DNA of 37,348 bases from Flavobacteriales bacterium (GCA_947463095.1 CANHRE010000019.1:1-37348), one strand, 5' to 3'. Counted from the stretch's first letter, positions 8,599-34,018 are shown. The notes: a model not told the origin generated them from the sequence alone. A program made the numbers and translations.

Positions 8599-10854
<2,256 letters not shown>

Positions 10855-21959: not shown

Positions 21960-22496
21960 ATGACCCTGGAGGATTTATACCATCAACATCATGAACGGGT
22001 ATTTAACCTCGCACTGCATTACCTGCAGAACATTGAAGATGCGGAAGAAGTTACACAGGATGTATTTGTAAAGGTGCATGAAAAACTGAGCACCTTTAAG
22101 GGAGCTGCTGCGGCAGGAACATGGATATACCGCATAACGGTGAATACCGCCCTAGATGCCCTCAGGGCGCGAAATGCGGATAAGCGTTCGCATTGGCTGC
22201 GGGCGGTCAGCATCGGCAGCAAACCCCTGGAACAGGACCCTGGCTCCATGCTGCACCCAGGGATAAACTTGGAGCATAGGGAAGCGCTGCTGCAGTTATT
22301 CAGAGCAATCAATAAACTGCCCGTCAAACAACGCACGGCCATCATCCTGCTCAAGGTAGAAAGCCTGAGCTTGGAAGAAACAACGCAGGTGATGCAAATT
22401 TCTAAAGAGGCGCTGGAGTCCTTATATCATCGGGCAAAAACACAACTGAAAAACATATTGGCACAAGCGAAGGATGACAAAACAAAATCCGTCTAA
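21960..22496 (+). CDS. ECF-type RNA polymerase sigma factor
   Basis: This is a 178-aa sigma-70 family protein of the extracytoplasmic-function class. Region 2 covers about residues 7-72 (DAEEVTQDVFVKVHEKL, TWIYRITVNTALDALR), and region 4 about 101-165 (INKLPVKQRTAIILLKVESL, then a helix-turn-helix with ALESLYHRAKTQLKNIL). It lacks regions 1 and 3, as expected. It is the first gene of a tightly packed run, and its end overlaps the next small membrane protein gene, the usual place for an anti-sigma factor. It probably transcribes its own operon. No TAnnTTTG box was seen upstream, compatible with an alternative promoter, but the ECF recognition sequence cannot be read from one site. Confidence 0.93.
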   Translation: MTLEDLYHQHHERVFNLALHYLQNIEDAEEVTQDVFVKVHEKLSTFKGAAAAGTWIYRITVNTALDALRARNADKRSHWLRAVSIGSKPLEQDPGSMLHPGINLEHREALLQLFRAINKLPVKQRTAIILLKVESLSLEETTQVMQISKEALESLYHRAKTQLKNILAQAKDDKTKSV

Positions 22497-22755
22497 AGTG
22501 AATATGGAAGATAAAATCGATCTTCTGAAATATGTTCTGCCGGTTGCACATGGCAACAGCCTTCCTGCTATTAGGCAGCGCATAGAGCAAAGGAGGCAGC
22601 GAATCGGGCCGGGGCATCTGATTGCAGCCGCTTCACTGCTCATCTTGTTGCTGAGTGCCGAAGCCTTGCTGGCTAAACGACAAAATGCTGCACGCCGACA
22701 GGCCTCCCTCAGCAAACTGATACCCGCTTCACAAATATGGTCGTACGATGAGTAA
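22474..22755 (+). CDS. Small single-pass membrane protein, candidate anti-sigma factor
   Basis: This 93-aa protein has a charged N-terminal segment of about 47 residues (KIDLLKYVLPVAHGN, RQRIEQRRQRIG), one transmembrane helix (about 48-67) and a short outer tail. I do not recognise a domain by sequence. Position (overlapping the sigma gene by 23 bp), size and topology match CnrY-type anti-sigma factors, which hold an ECF sigma at the membrane with a short cytoplasmic helix. Starting instead at the internal ATG 22504 gives 83 aa and a 7-bp gap. It overlaps the next gene by 8 bp. The function is inferred from context only. Confidence 0.7.
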   Translation: MTKQNPSKVNMEDKIDLLKYVLPVAHGNSLPAIRQRIEQRRQRIGPGHLIAAASLLILLLSAEALLAKRQNAARRQASLSKLIPASQIWSYDE

Positions 22756-23206
22756 ACAGCGTTTTTATGCCATCACCGCCCTGGTGCTGCTGGGCAGTAA
22801 CCTGTTTCTGTTGTGGCTGCACTTTTATGGGAGCAGGCCGCGGCATGAAGGGCCGCGCCGAGAAATCATCAAGCGGCTGAACCTTGACGATGTGCAGGTG
22901 CAGCGTTACGATGTACTCATCAAACAACACCGCACCTCGCTGCGCCAGTTGGACAGCACGGTACGGATGCAAAGACGCACCCTCTATACGGGCATCGGAG
23001 GTGCGCTGGCGGCGCAACATAAAGATTCCATGCTGCGTGAAGTCAGCAAGGCCCAGCTTGAATTGGAACAGTTGCATTACAGACATTTTTTGGACATCCG
23101 AGCATTATGTAAGCCGGAACAAGTGCCCGCTTTTGAAGCATTGAGCCGCGACCTGGCTGCTATGTTTGGTCCGGTTAAACCGGGCAAGCAAGGGCAAAGG
23201 CCATGA
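22748..23206 (+). CDS. Membrane-anchored periplasmic metal-sensor-like protein (Spy/CpxP/CnrX type)
   Basis: This 152-aa protein has one N-terminal transmembrane helix (about 6-27) followed by a highly charged, all-helical periplasmic domain. The block HFLDIRALCKPEQ (113-125), followed by FEALSRDLAAMF, is the pattern of Bacteroidota proteins annotated as periplasmic heavy-metal sensors. They are related to Spy, CpxP, ZraP and CnrX. Histidines (H33, H61, H91, H110, H113) and C121 are possible metal ligands. In CnrYXH systems such a protein senses metal and releases the sigma from the anti-sigma. Gene order and overlaps (8 bp before, 4 bp after) support the same job here, probably for copper. 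Confidence 0.75.
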   Translation: MSKQRFYAITALVLLGSNLFLLWLHFYGSRPRHEGPRREIIKRLNLDDVQVQRYDVLIKQHRTSLRQLDSTVRMQRRTLYTGIGGALAAQHKDSMLREVSKAQLELEQLHYRHFLDIRALCKPEQVPAFEALSRDLAAMFGPVKPGKQGQRP

Positions 23207-23829
23207 AGCAATTGTTGGCCCTTCTGCTGCTGTTTCCTGCAACAAACCATGCTCAGCAGCGTTTTTCCTTTCAACCCCGTTGGAATCAAACAGTGCTGAA
23301 GGCAGGCAGTTACTACCCTGCAGCACATACCACAGATAGTTTCCGTATAGACGTGCTCCGCTTTTACATAAGCGTCCTTCAACCGAACAATTCCAATGAA
23401 GACCCCGAACACGTGCTTATTGACCTTAGTGAACCAGGCAGCCAGGAATATACGAGCCACAACAACGGCAAGCATCTGCTGCTTGGTGTGGACAGCCTCA
23501 CACAGATGTCGGGTGCCGGTGGCGGCGCTTTGGATCCAATCCATGGCATGTACTGGACCTGGCAAAGCGGCTACATTCACCTGAAGCTGGAAGGTACAGT
23601 GCGTTCGGCTGATGGCCGTTTCAAGCCGTTCAGTTACCATATTGGCGGCTTCGAAACACCTTACAACACACTTCAAACGCTGAACAATGACAGCAGTAGC
23701 TTAAACCCTGACCTCGCCGTATTTTTTGCGCATACAGACCCCTGGACCCAGGGAGATGTGATGAGTCCTGGCCTAAAGGCCGTAACCATAGCTCAAGCCT
23801 GGAAAGCATGCTTTGTATCTAAACGATAA
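23203..23829 (+). CDS. MbnP-like copper-binding protein
   Basis: This is an exported 208-aa protein of the MbnP family (PF20243). The signal peptide is about residues 1-17 (ending NHA). Hallmarks are LLLGVDSLTQMSGAGGGALD (92-111), DPIHGMYWTWQSGYIHLKLEG (111-131, W118 and W120) and SYHIGGFETPY. In the methanotroph protein a tryptophan is oxidised to kynurenine by the partner MbnH, and kynurenine with histidines then binds copper. W118 and W120 are the candidate targets here, with several nearby histidines (H85, H91, H114, H126). The next gene, 5 bp downstream, encodes a di-haem peroxidase, the expected partner. No methanobactin genes are present, so the role is copper handling or oxidation outside that pathway. 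Confidence 0.88.
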   Translation: MKQLLALLLLFPATNHAQQRFSFQPRWNQTVLKAGSYYPAAHTTDSFRIDVLRFYISVLQPNNSNEDPEHVLIDLSEPGSQEYTSHNNGKHLLLGVDSLTQMSGAGGGALDPIHGMYWTWQSGYIHLKLEGTVRSADGRFKPFSYHIGGFETPYNTLQTLNNDSSSLNPDLAVFFAHTDPWTQGDVMSPGLKAVTIAQAWKACFVSKR

Positions 23830-23834
23830 AATCA

Positions 23835-24851
23835 ATGCAGAGGTTGATCGTTGTATTCTTAGGCCTTTTTGCCATTGCTTCATACCCTATATACGATATA
23901 GTTATCCCTACCTATTTCCCGGCCCTGCATTACAACCTGAAACGCAATCCGCTGAATGAGGAAGCAGTTCAACTGGGCCGCCTCTTGTTTTACGACCCCA
24001 TGTTGTCGGCAGACAGCAGCACATCCTGCGCATCCTGCCATTCATCGTATAATAGCTTTGCACACACGGATCACAAGCTTAGCCATGGCATCAAGGACCA
24101 AGTGGGCACACGAAATGCCCCAGCCTTATTCAACCTTGGCTGGCAAACGATTTTTATGTGGGACGGCGCACACCGCAACCTCGACATGCAGGCCCTGGCG
24201 CCCATCAATCACCCGCGGGAGCTGGGATTTTCGCTGGCGGGTGTACTGGGCATACTGCAGGGCAACCTGAACTACCGCGGACGCTTCTACAGGGCTTTCG
24301 GCGACAGCAATGCTACGGGTGAACACATGCTGAAGGCGCTGGCCCAGTTTCAACTTACCCTCATTTCTGCCGGGTCTAAATATGACAGGTTCAGGCAGGG
24401 AAATGCGTCCTTCACAGAACAGGAAGCAAAGGGATACGGCTTGTTTCAAAGGCATTGCAATGCCTGCCATAAAGAACCGCTGTTCAGCAACTACCAACTG
24501 GCATCCAATGGCCTTCTGCCTGATACCGTCTTGAATGACCCCGGGCGGATGGGCATTACCGGCAGGGAGGAAGACCGCTACCTGTTCAAAACGCCTTCAC
24601 TGCGCAATCTTTCCTATACTTTTCCCTACATGCACGACGGCCGCTTCAGCAAGTTGGCTGCTGTGCTGAATCATTACAGTACAGGCATTTCCCCAGAAGC
24701 CAGACCTAGCCTCCCACTGAAAGGTCCGTTAAACTTAAGTGGTTCAGAAAAGGCAGAACTTATCAGTTTTCTGCTCACCCTGAATGATTCAGCATTTGTG
24801 TTTAATAAAACACATGCCTATCCCATGGAACTAAGGCAAATCTGGAAATAA
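23835..24851 (+). CDS. Di-haem cytochrome c peroxidase family protein (MbnH-like partner of MbnP)
   Basis: This 338-aa exported protein carries two c-type haem sites: C65-A-S-C-H69 and C208-N-A-C-H212. An N-terminal hydrophobic stretch (about 4-24) serves as signal or anchor. Other family blocks are GRLLFYDPMLSADSSTSC, GTRNAPALFNLGWQ, MWDGAHRNLDMQALAPI and the C-terminal FKTPSLRNLSYTFPYMHDGRF. This is the bacterial cytochrome c peroxidase/MauG family. Adjacency to an MbnP-like gene (5 bp) identifies it as the MbnH branch, which oxidises a protein tryptophan to kynurenine. The axial ligand of the second haem, which separates peroxidases from MauG-like enzymes, cannot be assigned by eye. A 153-bp gap follows before the multicopper oxidase start. 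Confidence 0.9.
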   Translation: MQRLIVVFLGLFAIASYPIYDIVIPTYFPALHYNLKRNPLNEEAVQLGRLLFYDPMLSADSSTSCASCHSSYNSFAHTDHKLSHGIKDQVGTRNAPALFNLGWQTIFMWDGAHRNLDMQALAPINHPRELGFSLAGVLGILQGNLNYRGRFYRAFGDSNATGEHMLKALAQFQLTLISAGSKYDRFRQGNASFTEQEAKGYGLFQRHCNACHKEPLFSNYQLASNGLLPDTVLNDPGRMGITGREEDRYLFKTPSLRNLSYTFPYMHDGRFSKLAAVLNHYSTGISPEARPSLPLKGPLNLSGSEKAELISFLLTLNDSAFVFNKTHAYPMELRQIWK

Positions 24852-25004
24852 GTGCATGATGTATCTGTATAAAACTACAACCCCATGCAGCGCAAACCAG
24901 CGCAACAAAGCAAACACATGAGCAATAAAGACGAATACGAACGCGCCGCAAAAAAAAGCCAGCCTAAACGAACGTTTCCACAGAGGCTTACGTCTAAGCA
25001 ATCA

Positions 25005-26702
25005 ATGAGCGTTCAAACCACCCGGCCAATCTTTGCTGCTTTGTTGATGCTATGCGGCAAGACGACTGTTCAAGCGCAATATCAAACCATGCGCATACCG
25101 CAGGCGCTGTATGGAAAAGAGTTCAAACTCACACTAAAAGACAGCTTCAGGCAATTGCGTACCGGGAACCAAACCATTACTTCCGGAATCAACGGCGATT
25201 TCTGGGGACCTACGCTGTTCATCAACAAGGGCGATACCGTGCGCATGGATGTGCTGAACAAGTTGAACGATTCCACCACCCTGCACTGGCACGGGTTTCA
25301 CCTACCCGCTGTGATGGACGGAGGTCCGCACCAGGTGATTCCACCCAACACCCGCTGGAAGCCCTACTGGAAGGTTACCAACCAGGCTTCAACCTATTGG
25401 TATCATCCGCATCTCCATGAGATGACGCAAGAGCATATGACCAAAGGTTTGGGCGGGTTGATTATTGTTCGCGACAGCATGGAAGCTACCCTTGCGCTTC
25501 CCCGCACCTATGGCACCGATGATATTCCACTGGTGCTCACCAGCCGGCGCTATGATGCCGCCAATCAGTTTGTGTATAAAAACTCGGCCTATGGCGACTA
25601 TTTACTCAGTAACGGAACCCCCAACGCAACCTTTACCCTTCCCCGGCAGATGGTGCGGCTCAGGATTCTGAACGCCGATATCGAGCGTGGGTATAACCTT
25701 GGCTTCAGCGACAACCGCACGTTTTACGTCATCGGCAACGACGGCGGACTGCTTGAGGCACCTGTATCGCTGACCCGCCTGCCGGTGTACGTTGGTGAGC
25801 GATACGAAATACTGGTTGACCTGAGCGGTCTTGCCGAAGGAAACACGCTGGATCTGAAAGCATATAATTCTGGACGTTCCAACAGTTTTCCCGGTGGAGA
25901 ACCCGGCACAAGCGGCGTCTTTGGAAGTCTGCTGAACAATACTGACTTTAGCGTTTTGCACATCATTGTGGGTGCGCGAACGTCCAATCCCATCCTGAAC
26001 CTGCCAACCACATTGGTGAAACAAACCTATCTGAAGGCAGGCGACGCCACGAATACCAGAACGCTGAACGTGACCAATGGTCAACCCGCCAACAGCCCGT
26101 TCAGGTTTGACAATAAGCTGTTCGACATCAAATTCATCAACCATCAGGTGATTCGGAATACCGTTGAAAAATGGTCTGTAACCAACAACAACGTCTTTGG
26201 GCATTGTTTCCACATCCACGATGTACAGTTCAAAATCGTATCCCGCAGCAGTGGACCTATAGCCGCCTATGAAACCGGCTGGAAGGACGCATTTTTCATC
26301 AGTAGAAATGAAACCGTTGCTTTTGTGGCGCGCTTTTCCGACGAAGCCGATCCGCAGCACCCCTTCATGTACCACTGTCATTTCGGCAACCATGAAGACG
26401 AAGGCATGATGGCGCAGTTTGTTGTTGCCGAGCCAACACAGGGCACTGCTGAGCAGCATACTCCGGCGAAGTTTCAGGCCTATCCAAATCCGGCAAACGA
26501 CAAGATCTACCTAACAAGTGAAGACCCTTCAAGCCAGATATACTATGTGAACGTGGTGAATGCGGCGGGTAAAACCGTGATGATGTTGCCACAGCCACAA
26601 GCCGGCATTGAAGTGAGCAATCTGGCTCCAGGGGTGTACTTCCTCCACATCACCAATCAGCGTGACAAACACCAATCAGTGATTACCTTTCTGAAGCGTT
26701 GA
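25005..26702 (+). CDS. Multicopper oxidase with T9SS sorting domain
   Basis: This is a 565-aa secreted multicopper oxidase. The ATG at 25005 is preferred over 24885 because it begins a signal peptide ending VQAQ. All four copper signatures are seen: HWHGFH (94-99), WYHPHLHE (132-139), GHCFHIHDVQF and HCHFGNHEDEGMM near the end of the oxidase part. This gives a full type 1 plus trinuclear site. The most likely relatives are CueO/SufI-like enzymes, so cuprous or phenolic substrates are possible. About 80 C-terminal residues (FQAYPNPANDKIYL... APGVYFLHI) are a T9SS sorting domain, so the enzyme is sent to the cell surface or medium rather than the periplasm. Its stop codon shares a base with the redoxin start. 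Confidence 0.93.
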   Translation: MSVQTTRPIFAALLMLCGKTTVQAQYQTMRIPQALYGKEFKLTLKDSFRQLRTGNQTITSGINGDFWGPTLFINKGDTVRMDVLNKLNDSTTLHWHGFHLPAVMDGGPHQVIPPNTRWKPYWKVTNQASTYWYHPHLHEMTQEHMTKGLGGLIIVRDSMEATLALPRTYGTDDIPLVLTSRRYDAANQFVYKNSAYGDYLLSNGTPNATFTLPRQMVRLRILNADIERGYNLGFSDNRTFYVIGNDGGLLEAPVSLTRLPVYVGERYEILVDLSGLAEGNTLDLKAYNSGRSNSFPGGEPGTSGVFGSLLNNTDFSVLHIIVGARTSNPILNLPTTLVKQTYLKAGDATNTRTLNVTNGQPANSPFRFDNKLFDIKFINHQVIRNTVEKWSVTNNNVFGHCFHIHDVQFKIVSRSSGPIAAYETGWKDAFFISRNETVAFVARFSDEADPQHPFMYHCHFGNHEDEGMMAQFVVAEPTQGTAEQHTPAKFQAYPNPANDKIYLTSEDPSSQIYYVNVVNAAGKTVMMLPQPQAGIEVSNLAPGVYFLHITNQRDKHQSVITFLKR

Positions 26703-27298
26703 TGAGTGCATTCGCAGCACTGTTGTTTTCATGGGTTCTGCAGGTTGACTCCCCGCCTGTAAAGGGCAAAATGCTGCATAATTTCACCCTGCAACAGGCT
26801 GGTGGTGCTATGTATTCTACAGCACAACAGACAGCGCTGAAAGGGTTGGTTTTAGTATTTACCTGTAACCACTGTCCCTTTGCCCGACTATATACCCAAA
26901 GGCTTAACCAACTGGCCCGGCGTTGTGATACTTCGGGGATGAAACTGCTGGCCATCAACTCCATGGACACCCTTGTTTATGAAGATGAAACACTGTTAGA
27001 AATGCAGAAAAGGGCAAAAGAAGAAACCTTTCAATTCCCATATTTACAGGACCCTGAACAGCAAGTGGCTAAAATGATGGGCGCCGGCTGCACTCCCCAG
27101 GCGTTCATTCTCTGGAAAGAGCGGGGCACCTGGGTGATGCGTTACAGCGGAGCCATTGACAACAATGGACAAGAGCCGGAACATGCCGTTTCTTATATTG
27201 GAGCTGCGCTGGACGACCTGTTGTCAGGGAGAATGGTCAGAACACCTTATACGCAGGCCTTTGGCTGCAAGATTTATTACCGAAACAACGACGATTAA
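26702..27298 (+). CDS. Redoxin / AhpC-TSA family thiol-disulfide protein
   Basis: This 198-aa thioredoxin-fold protein has a CxxC site, C55-N-H-C58, in FTCNHCPFARLY. It is followed by the family pattern LLAINSMDTLVYEDET, FPYLQDPEQQVAKMMGAGCTPQAFIL (cis-proline in CTPQ) and a C-terminal GCKIYYR. The first 15 residues are hydrophobic and may export it, which would place the dithiol in the periplasm. The ATG at 26702 overlaps the multicopper oxidase stop by one base, showing tight coupling. Likely roles are keeping cysteines or copper sites of its exported neighbours reduced, or haem/copper-centre assembly. The role is inference; the fold is clear. Confidence 0.88.
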   Translation: MSAFAALLFSWVLQVDSPPVKGKMLHNFTLQQAGGAMYSTAQQTALKGLVLVFTCNHCPFARLYTQRLNQLARRCDTSGMKLLAINSMDTLVYEDETLLEMQKRAKEETFQFPYLQDPEQQVAKMMGAGCTPQAFILWKERGTWVMRYSGAIDNNGQEPEHAVSYIGAALDDLLSGRMVRTPYTQAFGCKIYYRNNDD

Positions 27299-27304
27299 AC
27301 AACC

Positions 27305-28687
27305 ATGAACAAAAGAAATTGCGCATATGCGCTGGCCAGCCTGATGCTGCTCATCGGCTCAGTAAAAGCCCAGGGACCGGCCATTACATCCTGGCTGCAA
27401 AACACTACCCAAACCGGTTCTTATTATAAGGCAGGTAACAGCACCACCATCAGCAACAGCATCCTGGTGAACTGCCAAAAGGTGGAATATGCTGCAGACT
27501 GGGTTTATGTAAGCACACGGGGTATCCCGGCATATCCCACAGGTCCTTTCCAGGATGGAAACCCTTCGCAGGCAACTGACCAGAATGCCATCTTTAAACT
27601 ATCCCTCAAGCCGCGGCAAAACACCGGAACCGCTACCGCCACTACCGGAGGTAACATTGGTTTGTTCATCAATGGTGTGGCGCTGTTCGACTACCGCGAC
27701 GGCGTAGCCTGGAATACCAGCACCAACGCGCTGTGCGGCGGACCGGGTAATCCGCCCTGCCCCGGAGGACCCGGCACAACCCAAAGCTGGAACCGCGACG
27801 CCATCCCGGCAGAGCGACCCGGCTTCGACTGCAGCAAGGGGCATCCGGCCATGGGCAACTATCACCACCACCAGAACCCCAGCGCCTTTAAGCTGGACAA
27901 GAAGGTGATATCCACTGTGTGCAACCTCTACGATGCCGATGGTTTGTATGTGATTGACACCACGAAACACTCGCCGCTGATAGGATATGCTTACGACGGC
28001 TTCCCCATCTATGGTGCCTATGGCTATAGGAATACCGACGCAACCGGGGGCATAGTGCGCATGAAATCGGGATACCAACTGCGCAGCATCACGGCGCGCA
28101 CCCACCATGCCGATGGCACCGATGTTGCTGATGGCCCTTTGGTAGGCGGCAGCTATCCACTCGGGTATTTCCGCGAAGATTATGAATTCAAGACCCATGC
28201 CGGCGAAGCAGATTATCTGGACGAACACAATGGCCGTTTTTGCTTCACACCCGAATACCCTCAAGGTATTTACTGCTACTTCGCCACAGTGGACGCCAAC
28301 CACAACTCCGCCTATCCCTATGTAGTGGGACCCACTTTTTACGGTGTTAAAACCGCAGTCAAGGTAACTACTGTGGGCGAAACCACTACCATTTATACAC
28401 CTTCCACTACCGGTTATACACCTGCGGAATTCGGAGCGTTAAACATCCGTATGTTTCCGAACCCCACAAGCGACATCCTTGCGATTCAAGCCGGCGGATT
28501 GGTTAAGGAAGACATCAGCCTGCACCTTTATGACCTCAGTGGTCGTGAGCTGATGCACTCCTCCATCAACAAGGGCCAGACCATCGCCTATTTCGACATG
28601 CAGGCGTTGTATCCCGGTCTTTACACGCTGATGGCCCGAAACGGCAAACAGGAGTGGACACAACAGGTGATGAAAGCAGAGTATTAG
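27305..28687 (+). CDS. YHYH-domain protein with T9SS sorting domain
   Basis: This 460-aa secreted protein has a signal peptide (about 1-22, ending VKA). The YHYH domain family is named for its histidine motif; here it reads Y186-H-H-H (GNYHHHQNPSAF). The family block LIGYAYDGFPIYGAYGYRN follows, with other His-rich parts (TARTHHADG, DANHNSAYPYVVGP). The C-terminal 80 residues (MFPNPTSDILAI... LYPGLYTLMARNGKQEW) are a T9SS sorting domain. The family has no established activity. Clustered histidines and its place at the end of a copper-protein operon suggest metal binding, which is inference. Cysteines C144, C152 and C176 could form disulfides. It starts 6 bp after the redoxin stop. Confidence 0.87.
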   Translation: MNKRNCAYALASLMLLIGSVKAQGPAITSWLQNTTQTGSYYKAGNSTTISNSILVNCQKVEYAADWVYVSTRGIPAYPTGPFQDGNPSQATDQNAIFKLSLKPRQNTGTATATTGGNIGLFINGVALFDYRDGVAWNTSTNALCGGPGNPPCPGGPGTTQSWNRDAIPAERPGFDCSKGHPAMGNYHHHQNPSAFKLDKKVISTVCNLYDADGLYVIDTTKHSPLIGYAYDGFPIYGAYGYRNTDATGGIVRMKSGYQLRSITARTHHADGTDVADGPLVGGSYPLGYFREDYEFKTHAGEADYLDEHNGRFCFTPEYPQGIYCYFATVDANHNSAYPYVVGPTFYGVKTAVKVTTVGETTTIYTPSTTGYTPAEFGALNIRMFPNPTSDILAIQAGGLVKEDISLHLYDLSGRELMHSSINKGQTIAYFDMQALYPGLYTLMARNGKQEWTQQVMKAEY

Positions 28688-28946: not shown

Positions 28947-29390
28947 TTAGGCCTCCGGTTCCTTCATCCAGTCTTCACGCCTAATCAAATCCGCGATGCT
29001 TGTTTTAGCCAAGATGGCGAGGCTGGCATCGCGCAGCTCTTCCATCACGGCGTGGATGCCGCAGGTACGTTCATCTGCGCAGTACTCGCAGCGCTCGTAG
29101 TAGTTCAGGCTCACACAGGGAACCATGGCAATCGGTCCATTCATCACCCGGATCAGGTCAGCCAGGAACACCTGGTCAGCTGTTCGGCTCAGGTAGTATC
29201 CTCCACCGGAGCCTTTCCTGCTCAGCACAAATCCCGCCACCTTTAAATCGTGCAGGATACTCTCCAGGAACTTGTTGGGAATGGTCGTCGTGTCGGCAAT
29301 AGACGAAACGGAAGCCGGATGCTGCAGTGCATTGGCCCGTGCAATGAATATCAGTGCCTTGATGGCGTATCTAGATCGTTTGTTCAGCAT
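28947..29390 (-). CDS. Rrf2 family transcriptional regulator with cysteine cluster
   Basis: This is a 147-aa DNA-binding protein of the Rrf2 family (IscR, NsrR, CymR relatives). The N-terminus MLNKRSRYAIKALIFIARAN and the recognition part of a winged helix (IPNKFLESILHDLKVAGFV, SRKGSGGGYYL) are typical. Four cysteines in the C-terminal loop, spaced C-x8-C-x2-C-x5-C (PCVSLNYYERCEYCADERTC), may hold an iron-sulfur cluster or sense thiols. It is divergent from cysH with 66 bp between them, so it very likely controls the sulfate-assimilation genes and itself through the palindrome at 29407-29425. Confidence 0.92.
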   Translation of the reverse strand: MLNKRSRYAIKALIFIARANALQHPASVSSIADTTTIPNKFLESILHDLKVAGFVLSRKGSGGGYYLSRTADQVFLADLIRVMNGPIAMVPCVSLNYYERCEYCADERTCGIHAVMEELRDASLAILAKTSIADLIRREDWMKEPEA

Positions 29391-29394
29391 CTTT

Positions 29395-29425
29395 AAATCC
29401 TATAAATCCTACCAAATAAGTAGGA
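29395..29425. promoter_or_regulatory. Candidate Rrf2 operator between the regulator and cysH
   Basis: TCCTAC (29407-29412) and GTAGGA (29420-29425) form a perfect inverted repeat with a 7-bp spacer, extendable to 8-bp arms with one mismatch. The left arm overlaps a direct repeat, AAATCCTAT/AAATCCTAC (29395-29412). It lies 16 bp upstream of the cysH -7 box, where a repressor would cover the -33 region, and within 40 bp of the Rrf2 start. Confidence 0.65.
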
Positions 29426-29441
29426 ATAGTATTTTATTTTC

Positions 29442-29449
29442 TATGTTTG
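29442..29449 (+). promoter_or_regulatory. -7 box of the cysH promoter
   Basis: TATGTTTG matches TAnnTTTG exactly and ends 7 nt before the ATG at 29457. The transcript would therefore start at or beside the first codon, or translation starts at the second ATG (29463). Confidence 0.6.
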
Positions 29450-29456
29450 CGGCCCT

Positions 29457-30185
29457 ATGGTGATGCAATCTAATACAAAAAGCATCAAGCCTTTGTTGGC
29501 TGCAGCAGGTACCCTGGATGAAGTGCTTACGCTTGGCCTTCAGCAATTGGAAGGTCCGGCGGTATTCTCCACCAGTTTCAGCAAGGAGGACCAACTCATC
29601 CTGGAGGCAATCAGTCGCCTGGGGCTTCCAGTGCATGTATTCACCCTGGACACGGGCCGTCTGTTCCCGGAAACTTACCGGTTGTGGACGGAAAGCCTCT
29701 CGCGTTTTGGTTTGCCCATAAAGCCGTATTATCCGGATACTGCCGAGCTGGAGGGCATGGTATCTGCTGCGGGTCCTGACCTGTTTTACAGCAGCATAGA
29801 AAACCGCCAGCGGTGTTGTACTGTGCGCAAGGTGCATCCCTTAAAGCGCGCGCTTCAGGGAAAGAAGCTGTGGCTCACCGGCATCCGGGCGGCTCATTCA
29901 CCCAACCGTTCCACCCTAGAGATGCTGGAATACGATGAGGCCCACGAGTTGCACAAGTTTCACCCATTGCTGCACTGGTCAGACCGGCAGGTTGACGAGG
30001 AATTGCAGCGCTTGAGTATTCCCTGCAATGCCTTGTACGACCGAGGTTTCCTGAGCATTGGCTGTGCACCCTGCACGCGGGCGGTATCGGCCGGCGAGGA
30101 TGTTCGTGCCGGAAGGTGGTGGTGGGAAGAAGAAGGTAAGAAGGAATGCGGATTACACCAAAGAACCAATAGACCAATTGTATGA
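29457..30185 (+). CDS. cysH: Adenylylsulfate/phosphoadenylylsulfate reductase
   Basis: CysH reduces activated sulfate to sulfite in the cytoplasm, the second step of assimilation. The 242 aa show the nucleotide-binding PAPS-reductase fold (FSTSFSKEDQLILEA, TLDTGRLFPETYRL). C120-C121 (RQRCCTVRK) and C203-x2-C206 (IGCAPCTR) are the ligands of the [4Fe-4S] cluster found in bacterial enzymes that accept APS, and the catalytic C231 lies in KKECGLH. Use of APS fits the absence of an APS kinase (CysC) domain in the neighbouring CysN. It is the first gene of cysH-cysD-cysN-tauE and overlaps cysD by 4 bp (ATGA). An alternative start is the ATG at 29463. Confidence 0.95.
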   Translation: MVMQSNTKSIKPLLAAAGTLDEVLTLGLQQLEGPAVFSTSFSKEDQLILEAISRLGLPVHVFTLDTGRLFPETYRLWTESLSRFGLPIKPYYPDTAELEGMVSAAGPDLFYSSIENRQRCCTVRKVHPLKRALQGKKLWLTGIRAAHSPNRSTLEMLEYDEAHELHKFHPLLHWSDRQVDEELQRLSIPCNALYDRGFLSIGCAPCTRAVSAGEDVRAGRWWWEEEGKKECGLHQRTNRPIV

Positions 30186-31075
30186 ACCATCTTGATACCC
30201 TTGAAAGGGAGGCCATGCACATTATGCTGGAAGTGGCGGGGCAATTTGCGCAACCTGCGCTCTTATTCAGCGGCGGCAAGGATTCCATTGTGCTGGCCCA
30301 TATAGCCTCAAAGCTGTTTAGGCCTTCCGTGATACCCTTTCCCCTGCTGCATATAGACACGGGCCACAACTTCCCCGAGGCCCTTTTCTTTCGCGATGCC
30401 TACAGCGCGGGACTAGGGGCGCGGCTGATTGTGCGCTATGTCAGCGATTCCATAGAAAAGCACGGCCTCAGTGAGCCGCAGGGCAAGTTTCCCTCGCGCA
30501 ATGGCCTGCAGTCGTACACCCTGCTTGATGCCATTGAGGAGTTTGGTTTTGACGCCTGCATTGGAGGCGCCCGCAGGGATGAAGAAAAGGCCAGGGCCAA
30601 GGAGCGAATCTTTTCTGTCCGCGATGAGTTTGGCACCTGGGATCCCAAGAACCAGCGGCCGGAATTATGGAATATCTACAATGGACACATTGCTCGGGGG
30701 CAGAACATGCGCGTATTCCCCATTAGCAACTGGACAGAGCTCGACGTATGGCATTACATCCGCAGGGAAGGTATTGAGTTGCCCTCCATCTACTTTGCCC
30801 ATGAGCGGGAAGTGATTCGCCTGGGCAACAGGTGGATGGCAACAAACCGCTTCATACAGCCTGAGGCGGGTGATACTGTGCTGCGCAAGAAGGTACGCTA
30901 CCGCACCGTGGGCGACATGACCTGCACCGCCGCCGTAGAAAGCGAAGCGACCACCCTTGACGCCGTTATTGCCGAGATACAAGCCTCCACCATCAGCGAG
31001 CGGGGGGAAACCCGTATCGACGATCAGATATCGGAAGCGGCCATGGAAGACAGGAAGAAGAACGGATACTTCTAA
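30182..31075 (+). CDS. cysD: Sulfate adenylyltransferase subunit 2
   Basis: CysD is the catalytic subunit of ATP sulfurylase, making adenylylsulfate (APS) from ATP and sulfate. The 297 aa include the PP-loop SGGKDS (30-35), the family blocks HIDTGHNFPEALFFRD, GGARRDEEKARAKERIFS, FPISNWTELDVWHYI and RYRTVGDMTCTAAVES, and a C-terminal KKNGYF. The length is typical. It overlaps cysH by 4 bp and lies 14 bp before its GTPase partner cysN. Confidence 0.97.
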   Translation: MNHLDTLEREAMHIMLEVAGQFAQPALLFSGGKDSIVLAHIASKLFRPSVIPFPLLHIDTGHNFPEALFFRDAYSAGLGARLIVRYVSDSIEKHGLSEPQGKFPSRNGLQSYTLLDAIEEFGFDACIGGARRDEEKARAKERIFSVRDEFGTWDPKNQRPELWNIYNGHIARGQNMRVFPISNWTELDVWHYIRREGIELPSIYFAHEREVIRLGNRWMATNRFIQPEAGDTVLRKKVRYRTVGDMTCTAAVESEATTLDAVIAEIQASTISERGETRIDDQISEAAMEDRKKNGYF

Positions 31076-31089
31076 GCACCTCCAAAACT

Positions 31090-32331
31090 ATGGATATACT
31101 AAGATTTTTAACTGCCGGCAGTGTGGACGACGGGAAGAGTACCCTCATTGGCCGCCTGCTCTATGATCGGCGGCAAATTTTCAGTGACCAGCTAGAGTTA
31201 CTGCGAAGGCAGAGCAAGGCACGTGATGGTTCAGAGCTGGACCTAGCACTGCTTACCGATGGGTTGCGCGCCGAACGAGCCCAGGGCATCACCATCGATG
31301 TGGCATACAAATACTTCTCTACACCAAAACGGAAGTTCATCATTGCCGATGCACCTGGCCATGTGCAATACACCAGGAATATGGTAACGGCTGCCAGCAC
31401 CGCCCAGGCTGTAATTTTCCTGATAGACGCCAGGAAAGGGGTTATTGAGCAAACCCGACGACATCTGTATATAGCTGCCATGATGGGCATCAGGCATTTC
31501 ATTTTTGCCATCAACAAGATGGACTTGGTGGGTTATTCCGAAGCGGTATACCAAAGCATCTGCTTGCAGTGCCGGCAGGCTGTTGAAGGTGCACAGGGGC
31601 CGGTGCCGCTGTTGATACCTGTTGCCGCTCTGCCCGGAGATCTGGTTACCGGGCCCTCAGCCAATATGCCCTGGTATCATGGACCAAGCATCCTTCAGGC
31701 ACTCGAGGAGCTGCCCGTGGTGCAAGACATCCCGCCGGGCGAAACCTGCTTCCATGTGCAATACGTCAATAGGCCACAGAGCGCAAATCTGCACGATTTC
31801 AGGGGTTATATGGGAAGCCTGCTTTCAGGAGAAATTATCGTGGGACAGCAGGTGCAGGTGTTTCCTTCACAGCAAGTCGCCCGCGTGAAGTCCATCAGGA
31901 TGGAAGGTGTAGCGCGGGAACGCACCCTTGGGACAGGCATCTATACCATAGAGCTGGAAGAAGAATTGGATATAACGCGCGGCGATTACCTGTTGCGTTC
32001 TGAAGAAAGCGGCGAGGGGAATACCGAATTTACTGCGCAACTCTGTTGGTTCTCTGAGAAGGCAGGACGGGCAGGGATGAAGGTAAAGCTCCAACAGAAC
32101 AGCATGCTTACCCGGGCTGTCATCACGGGAATCCTGCATTCGGTAAACCTGGATGACTACAGCCATAATGCAGCCCCCGAACAGATCAATCTGAACGACC
32201 TGGTAAGCGTGCGCATCCGAACCCAGCAGCCCATGCCGCGCGGGGAGGATTCAAACACTGCTTCCCTGAAGCAGGCCATCCTTATCGACGAAGTAAGCAA
32301 TCAAACCATTGCAGCGGTCCTTATTGATTAA
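31090..32331 (+). CDS. cysN: Sulfate adenylyltransferase subunit 1 (GTPase)
   Basis: CysN is the EF-Tu-like GTPase that drives sulfate adenylylation by CysD. The 413 aa carry the P-loop GSVDDGKST (10-18), the switch II DAPGH, and the guanine-specificity NKMD, followed by two beta-barrel domains (HDFRGYMGSLLSGEIIVGQQ, VKLQQNSMLTRAVITG). It is the short form, without a fused CysC kinase, which agrees with an APS-type CysH. The TauE-like gene overlaps its end. Confidence 0.96.
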   Translation: MDILRFLTAGSVDDGKSTLIGRLLYDRRQIFSDQLELLRRQSKARDGSELDLALLTDGLRAERAQGITIDVAYKYFSTPKRKFIIADAPGHVQYTRNMVTAASTAQAVIFLIDARKGVIEQTRRHLYIAAMMGIRHFIFAINKMDLVGYSEAVYQSICLQCRQAVEGAQGPVPLLIPVAALPGDLVTGPSANMPWYHGPSILQALEELPVVQDIPPGETCFHVQYVNRPQSANLHDFRGYMGSLLSGEIIVGQQVQVFPSQQVARVKSIRMEGVARERTLGTGIYTIELEEELDITRGDYLLRSEESGEGNTEFTAQLCWFSEKAGRAGMKVKLQQNSMLTRAVITGILHSVNLDDYSHNAAPEQINLNDLVSVRIRTQQPMPRGEDSNTASLKQAILIDEVSNQTIAAVLID

Positions 32332-33184
32332 CGTTACGGGACCAGGGCGCAGGAAGGTATTATTGCTGCTGGCTATGCCATTGCTGGTGGTGGTGCTATG
32401 CCTTGCGGCCCACTGGAAGCTGGGACCACAGAGTTTTGTCAACACTCTGTTCCTGTGGTGCGTGCTGGGGGGCTTCATGGCCCAGCTCATCGATGGAGCC
32501 CTGGGCATGGGATATGGCTTGGTTTCGGCCACCTTCCTGATGTCGCAACCCATACCTCTTGCCGCCATCAGCGCCAGCATACACAGCTCGGAGATATTCA
32601 CCACTGCCGCCGGAGGACTGGCCCACTGGCAGTTTGGCAATATTAACCGCAGCTTGTTCCGCAAACTGGTAATTCCCGGCGTGCTGGGCGCTATAGCAGG
32701 TGCCCTGATGCTTAGCCTGGCCGGGGATAACTATGCCGGCTACCTTCGGCCCATCCTGGCTGTTTACATCCTATTCCTTTCGGTTAAATACCTGCTGATG
32801 TTCTTCCGCAAGGTATTCATCAACCGAGAGGTGAAGCATATCCGCGCATTGGCAGCGGTGGGGGGATTCCTCGATTCCTTCGGCGGCGGCGGCTGGGGTC
32901 CGCTGGTAACGGTCACCCTCATGCGCAGCAGCCACGACCCGAAACAAATAATTGGCAGTGTAAGCCTGACGGAGTTCTTCGTAACCTTTTCCAGCGCATT
33001 TACCTTCTTTCTGCTGCTGGGCATACAGCATTGGCAGCTTGTATTGGGGCTCATGGCCGGAGGGGTTATGGCTGCACCCTTCTCAGCGCTACTGGCCGGC
33101 ACCCTGTCAAAGCGCTGGAGCTACTTCTGGATAGGACTCATCGGTGGACTATGGAGCCTCAGGATTTTAAGCTCGATGATATAA
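32309..33184 (+). CDS. TauE/SafE family sulfite exporter-like permease
   Basis: This is a roughly eight-helix inner-membrane protein of the TauE/SafE family (up to 291 aa). Family signatures are GALGMGYGLVSATFLM near the N-terminus and LDSFGGGGWGPLVTVTLM in the middle, the two inverted halves of the fold. It probably moves sulfite, sulfate or a sulfonate, fitting its place right after cysN. The start is unclear: TTG at 32309 and TTG at 32324 both overlap the cysN stop and keep a basic GRRK segment before helix 1, while the first ATG (32375) lies inside that helix. No cysI or cysJ is seen nearby. Confidence 0.88.
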   Translation: MQRSLLINVTGPGRRKVLLLLAMPLLVVVLCLAAHWKLGPQSFVNTLFLWCVLGGFMAQLIDGALGMGYGLVSATFLMSQPIPLAAISASIHSSEIFTTAAGGLAHWQFGNINRSLFRKLVIPGVLGAIAGALMLSLAGDNYAGYLRPILAVYILFLSVKYLLMFFRKVFINREVKHIRALAAVGGFLDSFGGGGWGPLVTVTLMRSSHDPKQIIGSVSLTEFFVTFSSAFTFFLLLGIQHWQLVLGLMAGGVMAAPFSALLAGTLSKRWSYFWIGLIGGLWSLRILSSMI

Positions 33185-33199
33185 GCCGAAAATAGAATC

Positions 33200-34018
33200 A
33201 TGCTTCAAAAGCAGACCGGCATCGCGCATAGGATGAACATATACAGGATAAACAGCATCAGGAATACTGGCCTCGCCCTGCTTCTGATGATGATAACCAA
33301 TTACCTTCACGGGCAAAAGAACTTCACCCACCAGAACTTGCTTTGGTATGGACTCTTCACTACCATCAAAATCAATGAAAATTGGTATGTGCAGCATGAG
33401 TTACAGCAAAGGCATTTCATCCGACCGGCGGCACAGCATCAGTTTCTGTTCAGAAGCCACCTTCACCGCAACCTGGGTCGCCGTGGCCGGGAAGCATCGG
33501 TGGGGTTATGCCTATTTCTTCAGGATCCAAACAACCCCTCAGCTGCTGTTCGGTTAACGGTACCCGAACTTAGGCCACATGTTGAAACAGCCTGCAGGCA
33601 AGAAGTTGGGCGCCTCACCCTTGATCACCGTTTTAGGCTGGAAGCGCGTTTTTTCCATAATACCAACCAGGCAAGAACAGCGCTTGAAGACGGATTCGTT
33701 TTCGGCAACTACCGCTTCCGGTATAAAATTCAGGCCGGTATGTTATTGCTCAAGCTAGCCGGTGGGAAGTATATTGAGTTAAAAATCAGCAACGAACTTC
33801 ACCTGAATGCCAAAAACAGAAATACAAAAAGGGTGTTTGACCAGAACAGGATATATGCCGGTATCAGTTGCCACTTTACGCAAGCTCTGACGACCGACAT
33901 CGGCTACTTAAACTTGTTCCAGCAAAGACCCGGTGGGGATTATTTCAACAGGCAAATCCTAAGGTTCACCCTGTACCACAAGCTGAACCTCCACCCAGGA
34001 AAAAAAGCCCGTCGTTAG
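33200..34018 (+). CDS. DUF2490 family protein, probable outer-membrane barrel
   Basis: This protein of 272 aa (261 if started at the ATG 33233, which gives a better signal peptide ending YLHGQ) belongs to the DUF2490 family. The N-terminal block LLWYGLFTTIKINENWYVQH and QRHFIRPAAQHQFLFRSHL, the repeated alternating strands and the final RQILRFTLYHKLNL suggest an outer-membrane beta-barrel. DUF2490 proteins have no assigned function. It lies 15 bp after the TauE-like gene and may be the last gene of the sulfate unit. A small GTTAGG/CCTAAC hairpin covers its stop codon. Confidence 0.75.
   Translation: MLQKQTGIAHRMNIYRINSIRNTGLALLLMMITNYLHGQKNFTHQNLLWYGLFTTIKINENWYVQHELQQRHFIRPAAQHQFLFRSHLHRNLGRRGREASVGLCLFLQDPNNPSAAVRLTVPELRPHVETACRQEVGRLTLDHRFRLEARFFHNTNQARTALEDGFVFGNYRFRYKIQAGMLLLKLAGGKYIELKISNELHLNAKNRNTKRVFDQNRIYAGISCHFTQALTTDIGYLNLFQQRPGGDYFNRQILRFTLYHKLNLHPGKKARR

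Follow-up and report, generated by a model that had tools for sequence, protein, structure and literature searches.

The genes for MbnP, for the MbnH/MauG-type di-haem protein MbnH and for a YHYH protein form a conserved core in Bacteroidota, and a switch consisting of a sigma factor, a small membrane protein and a sensor is its frequent front end. The core was found in a stretch of 37,348 nt from a Flavobacteriales bacterium, called the window here, within a nearly gapless run of eight genes on the plus strand at positions 21960–28687. The MbnP/MbnH pair is known; its setting here, which is strongly conserved and regulated and includes a constant partner that is uncharacterised, is new. As to function, we assign about an even chance to a self-regulated envelope metalloprotein cassette, in which a maker of a kynurenine-copper site would support the metal loading of T9SS-exported surface proteins; within this reading, we infer the copper, the envelope signal and the activity of YHYH.

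Gene layout in the window

The original prediction had described eight genes on one strand, and this gene content was borne out by reading of the ORFs together with Pfam and NCBIfam searches: in order, an ECF sigma factor, a small single-TM protein, a sensor, MbnP, an MbnH-type protein, a multicopper oxidase (MCO), a redoxin and the YHYH protein. The tight junctions and the single 153-bp gap before the oxidase that had also been claimed agree with our measurements, in which the first three junctions, from the sigma gene through MbnP, are overlaps of 23, 8 and 4 bp, MbnP and MbnH are 5 bp apart, MCO and redoxin overlap by 1 bp, and 6 bp separate redoxin from YHYH. The 153-bp gap between MbnH and MCO becomes 33 bp when the oxidase is read from its first in-frame ATG at 24885; the start is probably at 25005, because the later position agrees better with the signal peptide and with the relatives. 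Such a run would be expected to work as a self-regulated operon, and neither sigma-70-like sites nor terminators were found in the region in excess over shuffled sequences.

Conservation among related genomes

An order-level survey, in which PF20243 and PF14240 were searched over 108 genomes and the gene order was read in 50 regions with the window's own genome included, showed that the succession sigma factor–small TM protein–sensor–MbnP–MbnH–YHYH recurs in several genera and in both families of the order. Long YHYH genes in the 108 genomes adjoin MbnP/MbnH, except in one genome (G042) and in copies at contig ends, and the examined loci encoding YHYH proteins of about 400 aa do not lie beside MbnP/MbnH. 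Because the loci L003–L030 of this survey were chosen for co-location of MbnP and YHYH, we quote rates only from an unbiased set of 80 loci fetched by MbnP alone (from at least 521 relatives, 84,980 genomes), which includes Flavobacterium, Chryseobacterium, Neolewinella, Fluviicola, Saprospiraceae MAGs and others. In this set, MbnH lies adjacent to and downstream of MbnP in 69 of 70 loci, and YHYH follows in 51 of 57. Sigma factor and sensor precede MbnP in 18 of 56 loci, two thirds being without the switch. A redoxin was found in 5 of 57 loci, including all three of the 57 that have an MCO; about 95% of the core-bearing relatives are without MCO.

Conserved co-occurrence in other genomes had been set beforehand as the test on which the original prediction would fall, and the prediction passed it, although the conserved unit, at the above rates, is the trio and not the eight genes. 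The eight-gene run as a conserved system was rejected because MCO and redoxin are so rare. The order sensor–mbnP–mbnH–mco–redoxin–yhyh is found identically in a congener (L031; the redoxin was recovered by tblastn), and a Saprospira-labelled MAG (L045) repeats the window's gene order exactly, indicating that the arrangement is not due to chance. Of 297 evenly sampled Bacteroidota genomes, 15 contain a long YHYH gene, and eight of these (window included) have MbnP on the same stretch, showing that the cassette is scattered but wide. Correlations of gene distances (mbnP–mbnH, r 0.74; sig–spy, 0.77; mbnP–yhyh, 0.28; all p 0.001) partly reflect species relatedness and, thus confounded, are compatible with joint inheritance.

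MbnP, MbnH and the predicted copper site

MbnP (23203–23829, plus strand; 208 aa, predicted to be Sec-exported) matches PF20243 with 99.5 bits against the curated cut-off of 27 (2.8e-28). Its identity, already claimed from the sequence, is supported by the WxW motif and by the predicted fold, a true MbnP fold: the AF2 model (pLDDT 84.5) matches MbnP of Methylosinus trichosporium (7l6g) with E 5e-5, prob 1.00 and TM 0.53. This was the sole significant match of the fold search, and no PDB chain was found for MbnP by sequence. The motif, W118-T-W120, lies at 23554–23562, and W118, W120 and H146 are invariant in 22 MbnP sequences. Work by Manesis et al. in PNAS in 2021 reportedly showed that MbnH brings about the oxidation of the first Trp of WxW to kynurenine, a change on which Cu(I) binding depends. 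According to this family knowledge, W118 would be the expected kynurenine precursor, and MbnP would carry a kynurenine-dependent Cu(I) site. Both proteins score below the NCBIfam cut-offs: MbnP has 28 bits against 140 for the TIGR04052 equivalog, which indicates a divergent clade, and MbnH has 190 against 363 for TIGR04039.

MbnH (23835–24851, plus strand; 338 aa) belongs to CCP_MauG, PF03150 (166.6 bits, 7.7e-49), and has two CxxCH motifs, i.e. two c-type haem sites; cytochrome c maturation genes are present in the genome. It aligns end to end with MbnH 6e1c, and its invariant Tyr281 falls on "DIYSEG" of that protein, at a position that we take to be the distal haem ligand of MbnH/MauG. Among PDB entries, it scores best against an ordinary di-haem peroxidase (1iqc, 1.5e-43), and classical peroxidases outscore 6e1c. 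This match, together with the presence of the redoxin and an invariant Cys121 in the sensor, would suit a response to oxidative stress, in which MbnH would be a peroxidase with MbnP as its protein substrate or electron partner, the redoxin would reduce thiols and MCO would serve as an oxygen sink, copper being incidental. We nevertheless consider this quite improbable, because MbnH is paired with a WxW-bearing MbnP in all but one of 70 loci, Tyr281 is aligned with MbnH, and the redoxin is so seldom present.

The closest known pair, MbnP/MbnH of the Methylosinus methanobactin operons (TIGR04052/TIGR04039, GenProp0940), shares with the window the adjacency of the two genes, WxW, the predicted MbnP fold of 7l6g, two CxxCH motifs and the MbnH-like full-length alignment. 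Unlike those operons, the window's run contains no methanobactin genes, its clade falls below the equivalog cut-offs, YHYH is a constant third gene, and an ECF-type switch takes the place of MbnI/MbnR. Conservation of MbnP/MbnH pairs beyond methanobactin producers was described in 2013, in a paper that also found the MbnP sequence not markedly similar to MopE/CorA (PMC3621798). CorA and MopE have kynurenine copper sites with di-haem partners, and CorA, which copper represses, is regarded as a protein of copper acquisition (PMC3912023). The methanotroph systems CorA/CorB and MopE/SACCP would have in common with our set a copper protein with Trp converted to kynurenine, a di-haem peroxidase-like partner and copper handling at the surface or envelope; the WxW found here differs from the W62/H64 arrangement of CorA, and the run has no methane metabolism genes.

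The genome carries a second, classical MbnP/MbnH pair with a GMHWGW motif (L038, G000:C5:28785–29333), with NusB and a T9SS M1 peptidase close by, and its counterpart in the congener (L039) lies beside Ppx/GppA and PrmA. No YHYH gene or sigma switch was found near this second pair, and the absence of YHYH there indicates that the YHYH link is specific to the MbnP clade of the run. Two further loci have SCO1 immediately before MbnP, which speaks for the proposed cassette. In Chryseobacterium formosus (L099), the cassette MbnH is split into two ORFs and a further MbnH-like gene follows YHYH, possibly reflecting decay and replacement.

The YHYH protein and its export

The YHYH protein (27305–28687, plus strand) has a PF14240 domain (189.7 bits, above cut-off; 6.8e-56) and a T9SS tail (PF18962, 7e-9). 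T9SS tails had been claimed for both MCO and YHYH, and PF18962 was indeed found in both, with SprA present in the genome, as expected for T9SS cargo. The label "His-rich" given earlier to YHYH is a poorer description than a conserved His/Asp constellation, since H180, H187, H189, H222, D175 and D231 are invariant in the alignment; for phage tails, one paper has predicted that YHYH acts as a metal-dependent hydrolase (PMC7824862). The metal may be zinc rather than copper. A solved relative was not found, and the AF2 model is weak (mean pLDDT 69), with PDB matches obtained for the sorting domain and not for the core domain. The domain (27305–28684) matches PHROGs families of phage baseplate and virion structural proteins (1e-43 to 1e-23), and the His/Asp constellation is shared with PF14240 proteins including those of phage tails. 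Unlike these, the window's protein bears a T9SS tail for secretion and is constantly linked to MbnP/MbnH; a phage role cannot apply.

YHYH might itself be the purpose of the set, as a metal-dependent hydrolase at the surface with polymers as substrates, with MbnP/MbnH merely supplying or protecting its metal and having no wider copper role. The prediction for phage tails, the phage family matches and the recurrence of CotH and sulfatase genes as neighbours would all be consistent with this; however, the hydrolase activity is itself a prediction, the core domain lacks a fold match, and neither CotH nor sulfatase occurs in more than about a tenth of the loci. We regard such a restricted purpose as rather unlikely.

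CotH domains were found in nine neighbouring genes overall, and in three loci (L019, L023, L027) the sigma gene or MbnP is preceded by DUF2490 and DUF4956 genes and by the gene of a protein that clusters with CotH kinases. In two loci (L013, L022), a second set of sigma factor, TM protein and sensor leads a second, larger YHYH-like protein.

The regulatory front end

The ECF sigma factor (21960–22496, plus strand; 178 aa; PF04542 6.4e-17, PF08281 7e-10) is the first gene, and its relatives keep this position. Between it and the sensor gene lies the gene of a 93-aa protein (22474–22755, plus strand) with one hydrophobic segment around residue 49; exactly one TM segment is present in 40 of the 40 relatives listed, most of which share a conserved LY(E)-like tail at the C-terminus. 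This small protein gave no family match, CnrY not appearing even at E 1, and is a probable CnrY-like anti-sigma factor. The membrane-anchored Spy/CnrX-like sensor (22748–23206, plus strand; 152 aa) matches Metal_resist (6e-4) and LTXXQ (2e-3), both below the Pfam cut-off, and the best PDB match of its family profile is NccX (4clv, E 0.0033) over the whole length, TM segment included, with Spy-fold proteins next. The CnrYXH-like switch of the original prediction is therefore real as an architecture: an ECF sigma factor, a small one-TM protein and a TM-anchored Spy-fold sensor are adjacent, as in CnrYXH/NccYXH of Cupriavidus.

What does not carry over is the ligand set. Cys121 and Gln125 of the sensor are invariant; H113, present in type-1 sensors, is the only sensor His aligned with a ligand His of NccX, and the sensor has neither the N-terminal His pair nor the Met of the NccX/CnrX ligand set. 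Since the Ni/Co ligands are mostly not conserved, metal sensing by this protein is no more than putative. The window also differs from CnrYXH/NccYXH in gene order and in driving no Ni/Co efflux pump. A Gibbs search for a shared sigma-dependent promoter upstream of 41 sigma genes returned only motifs of about 10 bits, at scattered positions and dependent on the seed.

Multicopper oxidase and redoxin

The MCO (24885–26702, plus strand, start probably 25005) has three Cu-oxidase domains (PF07732, PF07731, PF00394) followed by a Por_Secre_tail (PF18962), and its copper-ligand motifs HWH, HPH, HxxHxH and HCHxxxH...M are all intact. CueO is among its best PDB and NCBIfam matches, and it is likewise a three-domain MCO with intact motifs; the score against the CueO model (7e-109) is nevertheless below cut-off, 365 against 525 bits, and unlike CueO the window's protein has a T9SS tail and is optional in the cassette. 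The exported redoxin (26702–27298, plus strand; PF00578, AhpC-TSA, 5e-14; CxxC motif CNHC) co-occurs with MCO, and the two are an occasional, lineage-specific add-on to the core.

This bears on copper detoxification, proposed earlier as one purpose of the run, in which the sensor would detect excess copper, the CueO-like surface MCO would turn Cu(I) into Cu(II), with MbnP and YHYH binding the excess. The nearest relatives, CueO for MCO and NccX for the sensor, are those that such a system would have, and no Cu-ATPase above the model cut-off was found in the genome itself, so that the cell could require a different defence. As a theme common to the loci, however, detoxification does not hold, because MCO and redoxin are rare and the run has no efflux pump; moreover, the functional analogue CorA is repressed by copper and thought to acquire it (PMC3912023). 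We therefore judge it unlikely.

Sulfatase-like genes lie between MCO and YHYH in four loci (L013, L022, L025, L007).

Proposed mechanism and significance

The counts are fitted best by the view that MbnP and MbnH serve YHYH, because no gene besides these three is constant. In the envelope metalloprotein cassette that we propose, the membrane-anchored Spy/CnrX-like sensor would perceive an envelope signal, either metal or redox, and its activation would make the small single-TM anti-sigma protein release the ECF sigma factor, which would in turn transcribe its own operon. MbnH would then oxidise W118, the first Trp of WxW, to kynurenine, creating a periplasmic Cu(I) site on MbnP, and MbnP would keep copper or pass it to T9SS-exported metalloproteins, always including YHYH. 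In some lineages, MCO may be a second client, with its partner redoxin keeping copper or cysteines reduced. A more specific form, in which the trio is a new secreted copper-enzyme system whose kynurenine-MbnP, as a dedicated chaperone of the periplasm, loads YHYH, a copper enzyme of a new class, before its T9SS export across the outer membrane, all under a new ECF switch responding to copper or redox, appears to us rather unlikely.

MbnP/MbnH pairs have been known far beyond methanotrophs and their clients have not, and YHYH, given its frequency next to them across Bacteroidota, is a concrete candidate client, by which a domain found also in phage tails becomes tied to a copper site maker. Recurrence of the trio across the phylum points to a hitherto undescribed route by which proteins of the cell surface would be armed with metal, and the clusters raise the question of the metal source of T9SS-exported metalloproteins. 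Our literature search, which was thin on subscription journals and is therefore no proof of absence, found no link between YHYH and copper or MbnP/MbnH. Cultivated strains among the cassette carriers can serve as test material; they include Flavobacterium aurantiibacter TH167 (L060), with the order sigma factor–TM protein–sensor–MbnP–MbnH–YHYH, and F. lotistagni CYK-4 (L076).

Neighbouring genes in the window

Downstream, at 28947–34018, a divergent Rrf2 regulator is followed by apparent assimilatory sulfate reduction genes (PAPS reductase-like, CysD-like and CysN-like GTPase), together with a TauE/SafE exporter and DUF2490. On the minus strand at 8599–10824, the window encodes a 741-aa haem peroxidase (PF00141) of KatG-like length.
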